Part shown: positions 7,909-13,729 of the stretch, piece after piece
How the letters are laid out: every line of letters starts with the position of its first letter
How positions within the stretch are numbered: the stretch's first letter is position 1
Source: Flexistipes sinusarabici DSM 4947
GTDB taxonomy: Bacteria; Chrysiogenota; Deferribacteres; Deferribacterales; Flexistipitaceae
Length of the DNA: 64,000 nt
Direction: 5' to 3'
Assembly (NCBI RefSeq): GCF_000218625.1
Contig: NC_015672.1
Location: 682,001 to 746,000, forward strand
Translations under genes and position numbers: made by a program
The notes under the pieces: generated by a model
Databases searched by the model: none
Told to the model about the DNA's origin: nothing
What the model saw: the letters and a program-made list of their open reading frames with translations, nothing else

Positions 7909-7983
7909 TTTATAATTGTTGATTTTTAGTAAGCAGGTAATATTTTGTTTAGGAAATAAAATAGCAAAAACCGGAGGTAAAAC

Positions 7984-9630
7984 ATACTATACGGCTACAC
8001 TGAAAATCTGAAGGCGAAGTTTCTAAAGCGATTTGAGAAACTGGATAAGAGAAAAAGCAAATCAACAGCGATCATTTCCAATGATCTTATAAAAAACATT
8101 ACTTCCCTTTCGTATGAGACAGGTCAACAGGTCGGTCTGTTGATCGACAGGAACAATACCATTCAATATGTACTTGTTGGCACAAATAAAGAAGTTCTTA
8201 TACCAAAACTGCACAGATTTGCGCTTGTGCCTGGTAAATTGCGCGGCTTAAGGCTGGTACACACACACTTATACAATGAAGAACTGACAGATGATGATTT
8301 TACCGATCTTGTTCTTTTACGGCTCGACTCCGTATCTGCTGTTACTATGGATGAAAACGGTAATCCCCTTAAAATGCATTCAGCACACATTATGCCGCCG
8401 GATGCTGATAAACCTTATGAGGTTTTTACCGATAAAGACCCCTACGATCAGAAGCTGGATTATTTAAGTTTTATTAAATCCCTGGAAGAAGAGGTCGAAA
8501 GTAAAACAAAGCAGCTCCATGAAACAAAATTATATGAAAGTGCAATACTCATAGGTGTCTATAGTAATAAATATGAAGCCGGAGAATCCATGGCAGAATT
8601 GAGAGAACTCGCTGCCAGTGCAAAAATTGAGGTCATGGATACCTTCTATCAGATTAAAAACAAGCCTAATCCAAAATATATCGTGGGTTCCGGTAAGTTA
8701 AAGGAGATTGTCATCAAAGCTCTTTCCAGCGGTGTGGATTATCTGATTTTCGATAATCAGCTTTCACCGGCGCAGTCAAAGGCCGTGGCAAATTTTACTG
8801 AGCTCAAAGTGATAGACAGAACGCAGCTGATTCTGGATATCTTTGCTGCACGTGCAAAGTCAAATGAAGGTAAGCTGAGGGTTGAGCTTGCCCAGTTGAA
8901 ACATATTCTTCCGAAACTCAGCGCAAGGGACGATTCCCTTTCCAGACTCACAGGGGGGATAGGTGGCAGAGGCCCCGGTGAAACAAAACTTGAAGTGGAC
9001 CGTCGTAGAATTAACGACAGAATAGCTTTTTTAAACAAGAAACTGAAAAATATAGAAAAAAACAGAAATGTTCAAAAAGGTAAAAGGCTGAAAAATAATC
9101 TACCCATTGTGTCGATTATTGGATATACAAATGCCGGGAAATCAACTCTGCTCAATGCTCTTACCAAATGTGACACATATTCGGACAATCTTATGTTTGC
9201 AACACTTGACACCAGCTCCAAACGTATCAGGTTTCCAAGAGAACGTGATGTTATTATAACCGATACGGTGGGTTTTATAAGAGATCTGCCCGCCGGTCTC
9301 AAAGGGGCATTTAAATCAACACTGGAGGAGTTGGATGATTCCGATCTGCTGCTGGAAGTTGTAGACGCCTCAAGTTACCATTATAAGCAGCATATTCAGT
9401 CTGTGTCAGAAATTTTAAATGAGCTTGGTTTGAATGAAAAAAGAAAAATACTTGTTTTCAACAAAATTGATAAACTGAGCGAAGATGAAATCTTTGAGAT
9501 TGAGAGGGAATATCCTGAAGCCGTTCTTGTTTCGGCAATAAAAAAACACAGCCTTGACCCGCTTCTGAAAAAAATACAGTCCGTATTGTTTCAGGAAGGA
9601 AAAGAAGTGCTTTTCAGCGGCCAGCATTAA
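7984..9630 (+). CDS. hflX: Ribosome-associated GTPase HflX, apparent ATA start
   Basis: HflX is a ribosome-binding GTPase that splits stalled ribosomes. The G domain is clear: GYTNAGKST at about residues 380-388, DTVGFI near 427 and NKID near 493, preceded by the glycine-rich GGIGGRGPGETKLE near 324. The first conventional start in frame is a TTG at 8140, but 52 codons upstream of it still encode conserved HflX sequence (ILYGYTENLK and SYETGQQVGLLIDR). The frame is closed by a TAA at 7978-7980. No ATG, GTG or TTG exists between 7981 and 8139. A perfect GGAGG (7973-7977) sits 6 bases before an ATA at 7984, which gives a 548-residue protein. Start codon is inference; family is firm. Confidence 0.9.
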   Translation: MLYGYTENLKAKFLKRFEKLDKRKSKSTAIISNDLIKNITSLSYETGQQVGLLIDRNNTIQYVLVGTNKEVLIPKLHRFALVPGKLRGLRLVHTHLYNEELTDDDFTDLVLLRLDSVSAVTMDENGNPLKMHSAHIMPPDADKPYEVFTDKDPYDQKLDYLSFIKSLEEEVESKTKQLHETKLYESAILIGVYSNKYEAGESMAELRELAASAKIEVMDTFYQIKNKPNPKYIVGSGKLKEIVIKALSSGVDYLIFDNQLSPAQSKAVANFTELKVIDRTQLILDIFAARAKSNEGKLRVELAQLKHILPKLSARDDSLSRLTGGIGGRGPGETKLEVDRRRINDRIAFLNKKLKNIEKNRNVQKGKRLKNNLPIVSIIGYTNAGKSTLLNALTKCDTYSDNLMFATLDTSSKRIRFPRERDVIITDTVGFIRDLPAGLKGAFKSTLEELDDSDLLLEVVDASSYHYKQHIQSVSEILNELGLNEKRKILVFNKIDKLSEDEIFEIEREYPEAVLVSAIKKHSLDPLLKKIQSVLFQEGKEVLFSGQH

Positions 9631-11823: not shown

Positions 11824-13729
11824 ATCAGTTATAATCAAAAATGTAGTCCTAAACTGACTTAGTTTTTTGAAGAATGGCGTCAAATCGGGATTTAATTTTT
11901 TCCATGCGGGCTGATTTGTAGTACGTGTATATATGCATTTATTGTTGACATTTATGTTTTTGTGGTTTATACATAAGTATGTTTTTGAGAAAAGTAGAGT
12001 CCAAAAGAAAATCAGGGTATACGCATACAACCGTGCAGCTGGTGGAATCATACAGAAATGAAGAGGGTAAGAGCAGAACAAGAATTCTTTATCATTTCGG
12101 TCCATTGGATAAATTTCTTCAGGCTGATGCTGACAAGCTTGTAGACAGTGTATTGAAGATGAAGGGCGAGGTATTTCTTGATCATTTGGAAAAATTTGGT
12201 TCAGCTAAAAACTTTGGAGATTTGTTTACCATATTCCGTATATTAAAGGAGCTAAAGTTTTTCCAGGAAATAGAAAAGATTAAGGAGAGTGAAACCCGTA
12301 TAGAGTTTGATCTGGTAGGCCATATTAACGCATTGATCTCAAATAGAATTAATGACCCTTCGAGTAAACTAAAGTTATTAAGCTGGCTTGAGTTAGTATA
12401 TTTGCCGGAATTAAAATCAAGCGGAATCAACTATAATAACCTATTAAGATCGATGGATTTTTTAATAAAGCATAAGAAACGTCTTGAAGATCGTCTTGCA
12501 GAGAGCGTGCTGAGTATTTTTGATTTAAGCCTGCGCATGTGTTTTTATGACATGACTTCGAGTTATTTTGAGACGAACAATTTAAGTGATTCAGATATAC
12601 GTTGTTATGGTTATTCAAGGGACAACCGTTCAGACAGGGTACAGGTGACTATAGGTGTAGTAATGACAGAGGAAGGTATTCCGATAGCTCATTATGTGTT
12701 CCCGGGCAACACAGCAGATGTGAGTACCTTGCAGGAAGTGGTAAAAGATATAAAGGATAGATTTGGAGACTTTCGTGAAGTTTCGATAGTAACGGACAAG
12801 GGGATGACAAGTGACAAGAATATAGATTATTTACTATCCGGTGATCATTCATTTATAGTTGGAGAATCCAAGACTAAAAAGATATCCAGAGAGATATTAT
12901 CAGAAGCTAATACTGAGCAGGAGGACAAAGAGAGCGGTTTTACATATGAAAAAGTTGTACCGTATAAATATGAAGTTGACGGTATTAAAAGACTTTGCAA
13001 TTTACGTTATGTTTGCAGTTTTAATCCTGAGACGTATCGCTTGAATGCTGAAAAATTCAAGGTAAAGCTTGCTGATTATGAAGAAAAGCTTTCGGAGATA
13101 AATGTTAAGGATATAGATTCAGCAGATAAGTATAGTCAACTTAAATCCTGGCTAAAATCACACGGTATGGTTAAGTGGTTTGATTTGTCTATCCAGGGTG
13201 ACGTTGTTATTTCTAAATCCAAGGATTCGGTTCTGTCTTCAGTTCAAGCCGGTTTTGGCTGGTTTTTAATAAAGTCCAACTTATCCTGGGAGTGGAACAA
13301 AGAAGAGCTTGTGTCAGGTTATAAGACATTATGGAAAGTGGAGCATGGTTTTCGTGAGTTAAAGCATTCATTTGATATCCGTCCTATGTATCATTGGACA
13401 GAAAGGCGCATCAGGGCGCATGTATTTCTTTGTTTCATAGGTATGGTAGCAACGAGTGTAATAGAGAAGAGGCTAAAAGATTCCGGGATTGATATGAGTT
13501 GGGAGAAGTGCTTGTATGAAATGCGAAAAATTAAAGTTATAGATTACAGGACAAAGTCTGGTATTTATGGTCATGCTATTAATGAGATTAGTAAGCAGCA
13601 GGAAAAATTATTCAGAGCTGTGGGGTGTCCAAAACCTAAATTGGGACATTTGTAGTAAATAATTTTTTAAGCAAGTTAAGCTAAAATGCTTATATGCGGT
13701 ATCTTTTTATATCACTGCTGATAAAGTCA
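11824..13729 (+). mobile_element. IS1634-type insertion sequence
   Basis: A complete element of about 1906 bp carrying one transposase gene. The flanks share a 5-bp direct repeat AGTTT (11819-11823 and 13730-13734). Near the ends lies an inverted TTTATCAG (11821-11828; complement at 13718-13725). The target-repeat reading is supported because deleting the element plus one copy restores the split ferritin-like frame exactly. The exact terminal bases are uncertain by a few positions. Confidence 0.75.
11979..13655 (+). CDS. IS1634-family transposase
   Basis: A 558-residue DDE transposase. The opening VESKRKSGYTHTTVQLVESY is characteristic of the IS1634 group, as are CYDMTSSYFETN, the SIVTDKGMTS strand with a catalytic Asp, and a C-terminal TLWKVEHGFRELKHSFDIRP helix with the catalytic Glu. 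The frame is intact. A promoter TTGACA (11945-11950), 17 bp, TATACA (11968-11973) lies so close that the transcript would begin at or next to the ATG at 11979, so the message may be leaderless. No ribosome site is seen upstream. Confidence 0.9.
   Translation: MFLRKVESKRKSGYTHTTVQLVESYRNEEGKSRTRILYHFGPLDKFLQADADKLVDSVLKMKGEVFLDHLEKFGSAKNFGDLFTIFRILKELKFFQEIEKIKESETRIEFDLVGHINALISNRINDPSSKLKLLSWLELVYLPELKSSGINYNNLLRSMDFLIKHKKRLEDRLAESVLSIFDLSLRMCFYDMTSSYFETNNLSDSDIRCYGYSRDNRSDRVQVTIGVVMTEEGIPIAHYVFPGNTADVSTLQEVVKDIKDRFGDFREVSIVTDKGMTSDKNIDYLLSGDHSFIVGESKTKKISREILSEANTEQEDKESGFTYEKVVPYKYEVDGIKRLCNLRYVCSFNPETYRLNAEKFKVKLADYEEKLSEINVKDIDSADKYSQLKSWLKSHGMVKWFDLSIQGDVVISKSKDSVLSSVQAGFGWFLIKSNLSWEWNKEELVSGYKTLWKVEHGFRELKHSFDIRPMYHWTERRIRAHVFLCFIGMVATSVIEKRLKDSGIDMSWEKCLYEMRKIKVIDYRTKSGIYGHAINEISKQQEKLFRAVGCPKPKLGHL

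Follow-up and report, generated by a model that had tools for sequence, protein, structure and literature searches.

A conserved near-cognate start codon, AUA, AUU or AUC, in long-form hflX, laid out like that of infC

Near-cognate start codons and their control

To our knowledge few bacterial genes that start with AUU, AUA or AUC have been characterised, and infC, which begins with AUU in E. coli, ATC in Streptomyces and AUA in S. aureus, is the one known as widely conserved. Its product, initiation factor IF3, represses noncanonical starts, with infC itself being autoregulated through its ATT or ATC, and Streptomyces sigR, whose GTC start is also repressed by IF3, shows that such control is possible for a gene other than infC (PMC5472188). 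The sigR case involves a different codon class, a single lineage and a transcription factor. In Staphylococcus, comparative and ribosome-profiling work has found conserved AUA and AUU starts that are accompanied by an extended Shine-Dalgarno (SD) sequence and give lower initiation, in one case in a medium-responsive manner (PMC13009471). Among them are ccpN (AUA), reported as conserved between S. aureus and B. subtilis, and cvfC1 (AUU), reported as conserved within Staphylococcus, and neither encodes a ribosome factor. The AUU start of E. coli pcnB limits translation, which is interpreted as dosage limitation for a product of unrelated function.

Here we consider the gene for HflX, a GTPase that in E. 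coli splits 70S ribosomes under stress, with IF3 preventing the subunits from re-associating (PMC9067457). Like infC, its long form has an AUA, AUU or AUC (AUH) start behind a strong SD, conserved across phyla, and HflX, like IF3, works on free ribosomal subunits. There is a difference: HflX is not a proofreading factor, so any loop involving hflX would be an IF3-dependent cross-control and not an autoregulation. The near-cognate start of the IF3 type is known; that hflX should be a second multi-phylum case, and one whose product acts on ribosomal subunits, seems to be new. Literature searches found no paper on a near-cognate hflX start, though their coverage was without most subscription journals and such absence is not proof.

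The hflX locus of Flexistipes sinusarabici

Flexistipes sinusarabici MAS10T is a deep-branching anaerobe of the Deferribacteraceae (PMC3236037). The window, that is the whole stretch of 64,000 nucleotides analysed, comprises bases 682001-746000 of its single-contig genome of 2,526,590 bp; positions given below are those within the window, and all the hflX features lie on the forward (+) strand. The coding sequence, an uninterrupted frame at 7984-9630 with its stop codon at 9628-9630, specifies 548 amino acids that score 441 bits (E=2e-132) against TIGR03156 (GTPase HflX), for which the cut-off is 216.75, and that contain in order PF13167 (GTP-bdg_N, residues 201-288), PF16360 (GTP-bdg_M, 290-368) and PF01926 (MMR_HSR1, 376-494). 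Both the family score and the domain order place the protein in the HflX family, and ribosome splitting by this long form is predicted by analogy.

What marks the long form is an N-terminal extension of about 200 amino acids (7984-8583), present in about a quarter (108) of the 385 genomes searched from across the domain. There is no Pfam match before residue 201 and a PDB sequence search with the extension gave no convincing relative; the N-terminal 200 residues of long-form HflX constitute an uncharacterised domain. Its first 52 codons are lost if the gene is called from the first canonical codon in frame, a TTG at 8140-8142 (codon 53), which is a leucine codon within the conserved GLLIDR motif and is not the conserved start. 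The frame is closed upstream by a TAA at 7978-7980, directly behind a GGAGG SD at 7973-7977, and after a single AAC codon (7981) comes ATA (7984-7986), with 6 nt separating it from the SD and LYGYTENLK following in the protein. The first-pass annotation had proposed this ATA as the start of HflX, and re-reading of the sequence confirmed its coordinates and layout for the GGAGG, the TAA, the ATA and the TTG. An upstream canonical start is ruled out in the window by the TAA, and in most relatives too a stop is found within a few codons upstream of the start. Neither in the window nor in the relatives that share an AUH codon at this place is there an ATG, GTG or TTG in the hflX frame able to yield the conserved N-terminus.

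Of 52 long open reading frames in the window, only that of hflX shows an ATH codon which has a strong SD and lies well upstream of the first canonical codon in frame, the one other match in the survey being an ATA directly preceding an ATG. Elsewhere in the window, downstream of lolA/lpxK-like genes, an open reading frame of 558 amino acids (11979-13655) was judged by eye from its translation to be transposase-like.

Conservation in the order and in other phyla

The hflX loci of relatives were taken from the closest genomes, the frame was traced back to its upstream stop and the start position was aligned as codon 3 (or 4) before a conserved glycine. In the order and its class-level outgroup (42 genes) that position is occupied by ATA in 27, ATT in 11 and ATG in 4. 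The HflX proteins of two further genomes of the genus are 99% and 80% identical, and both genes show ATA at this position behind a similar SD; in four genes (L017, L020, L022 and L024) the ATA is shifted outward by one codon, to 5-6 nt past the SD match. In 95% of the 42 genes an SD match of at least 4 nt precedes the start position by 4-11 nt, the figure at most other upstream offsets being about 0-20%. Conservation on this scale rules out a chance occurrence. The comparison of related genomes thus bears out the proposal of an ATA start, with ATA or ATT kept in 38 of the 42, and the start site at ATA 7984 is well supported by these comparisons of sequence. The ATG starts within this set are confined to L015 and L016 (genomes G039 and G044) and L040 and L041 (G047 and G046). 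In G039, G046 and G047 infC is still ATA, so that loss of the weak start from hflX need not extend to infC. The hflX of G040 (L027) has one in-frame TAG, which may point to a truncated gene or to a faulty draft sequence.

The phenomenon extends well beyond the order. Of the 141 long-form hflX genes read, the start position holds AUH in 118, ATG, GTG or TTG in 21 and neither kind in 2, with AUH starts occurring in at least six phyla, that of the window included. Long-form genes from other families have AUH in 34 of 51 cases and a canonical codon in 15. In a second phylum (that of G310) AUH was found in 27 of 29 genes (15 ATC, 9 ATA and 3 ATT), and in 93% of the 29 an SD of 4 nt or longer is suitably spaced from the AUH codon. 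For a third (that of G254), all 15 further genes are AUH, as are those of G254, G113 and G384 themselves, and in the phyla of G221, G145 and G123, each a separate small group, AUH was present in every hflX whose 5' end was read; the 15 of 15, and part of the readings for these small groups, were counted by eye from printed frames. One of the search baits was partly composite, its first 27 residues being from L107 and the remainder made up to resemble the family, and the start codons of its matches were read from real DNA. Two genes have neither type of codon just upstream of the conserved xYGN motif: L117 (G369) reads CTA at the place of the ATA found in L120 of the same family, and in L127 (G107) the codon that follows GGGAGG at the usual position is ACG. 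They represent either starts that are weaker still or errors in the draft assemblies.

Controls, and infC in the same genomes

That these genomes simply favour AUA starts throughout was ruled out by the window survey and by a control with the conserved GTPase Obg, whose gene in 29 of the same genomes starts with ATG in 23, TTG in 3 and GTG in 2; 28 of the 29 are therefore canonical, the remaining one being without a near canonical codon. In short-form hflX, which lacks the extension, all 10 genes read carry a canonical codon in frame close to the start of the gene. The pattern GGAGG-N5-7-ATW is without enrichment: 432 matches were counted, and 548 once the pattern was reversed as a control. 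Predicted RNA folding was unremarkable at the six start sites analysed (z-scores -1.1 to 1.7), which lend no support to a hairpin that would regulate the start.

The infC gene of the window genome reads TGGAGG-TGATCT-ATA, with the same 6 nt from GGAGG to ATA as in hflX. Across the order infC starts with ATA or ATC, although in four of its genomes an in-frame ATG a few codons upstream makes the start call less sure, and in 30 genomes of other families it is AUH in most. The codon is apparently ATC, not ATA, in L070 (G007) and in L283-L285 (G018, G011 and G023).

Retention of the weak codon on the tree

Start codons were placed as labels on a maximum-likelihood tree of the 42 HflX proteins of the order and class-level outgroup, which calls for 8 label changes altogether. 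For ATT the minimum is 5, on well-supported branches; for ATG the number is 2-3 with the outgroup counted in, its occurrences being in one subclade of one family in the order plus the class-level outgroup. On the tree of the order, then, ATA and ATT replace one another five times or more and ATG arises once or twice. A few long branches are placed uncertainly, which is not expected to change the contrast between ATT and ATG. The change from ATA to ATG is a transition and that from ATA to ATT a transversion. The former being the easier mutation, without selection ATG should have arisen more often. What the tree counts and the other phyla reveal is a near-cognate start retained while its identity drifts among the AUH codons.

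A proposed tie to IF3, and the alternatives

Why should a ribosome-splitting GTPase be given so poor a start? The explanation that we favour, and consider probable, is that the weak start of hflX is conserved since it keeps HflX low and exposed to IF3, as is the case for infC. The AUA at 7984 would be picked by initiator fMet-tRNA by virtue of the strong and well-placed SD despite the third-base mismatch, and selection would hold the start weak so that HflX synthesis remained low and dependent on start-codon stringency, above all on IF3. With ample IF3, HflX would be low; were IF3 limiting, more HflX would be made. When IF3 became scarce in relation to 30S subunits, or proofreading weakened, IF3 and HflX would both rise, the one to hold subunits apart and the other to split 70S ribosomes. 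What the sequences show is where the codon lies, that it is conserved, the constraint on the coding segment and the design shared with infC; initiation at AUA in the cell, its repression by IF3 and a physiological feedback are here inferred. An infC-like, IF3-sensitive control was what the first-pass annotation had suggested, and it gains support, as a reading of sequence, from infC sharing the GGAGG-6 nt-ATA layout in the same genomes and from ATG being far rarer on the tree than interchange between ATA and ATT. The weak start is not indispensable, since 4 of the 42 relatives have ATG, and among the 51 genes of other families 15 begin with a canonical codon.

The alternative that survives best, and which we hold to be a real if lesser possibility, is that the AUH start is genuine and does no more than keep HflX production low and constant, regulation through IF3 playing no part. 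Weak hflX starts do occur outside the AUH group, for the short-form gene of E. coli K-12 starts with TTG, which is weak too but outside the IF3-sensitive class, and E. coli pcnB, cited in PMC13009471, indicates that a conserved weak start such as AUU can persist for low dosage alone. However, GTG, TTG or a poorer SD would also give low dosage, and most lineages prefer AUH with a good SD; moreover the infC of the same genomes uses the same layout. These considerations point instead to exposure to IF3.

That HflX is translated from a downstream canonical codon, TTG 8140, the upstream segment being untranslated or translated at trace level, is very improbable. Gene callers restricted to ATG, GTG and TTG would pick that codon, and a short SD-like match precedes it. 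Against this, between the window genome and its 80% identical relative pN/pS is 0.184 for hflX codons 1-52 and 0.193 for codons 53-200, so that the disputed segment is constrained at the protein level just as what follows it; for the 20 codons upstream of the ATA it is 1.65. The contrast between 0.184 and 1.65 indicates that protein-level selection begins at the ATA. In addition, downstream in-frame ATG, GTG or TTG codons are at differing places among the relatives, or absent within 90 codons, and SD placement peaks at the AUH codon; the constraint on codons 1-52 and that SD peak are the grounds for rejecting a start at TTG 8140. As for a sequencing or assembly error, a single A/G difference would turn the ATA into ATG, but with an error rate below 1 in 100,000 at ~200x coverage for the published genome (PMC3236037), three genomes of the genus agreeing on ATA and more than 100 others, assembled separately, having ATA, ATT or ATC, it is ruled out by independent genomes and has a vanishingly small chance of being the explanation.

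Implications

There is a practical consequence for gene catalogues, in that automated annotation, usually limited to ATG, GTG and TTG, would give HflX proteins of this kind a wrong N-terminus, which in the present case is 52 residues short. For the biology of initiation, a second widely conserved AUH gene which again encodes a ribosome-subunit factor suggests shared control, and cross-regulation of HflX by IF3 becomes directly testable. It is about an even call, in our estimation, whether hflX and infC form an ancient pair of genes for ribosome-subunit factors, one splitting ribosomes that are idle or stalled and the other holding the subunits apart, present in multiple phyla and governed by one sensor, the start-codon stringency imposed by IF3, such that a fall in free IF3 would raise both.
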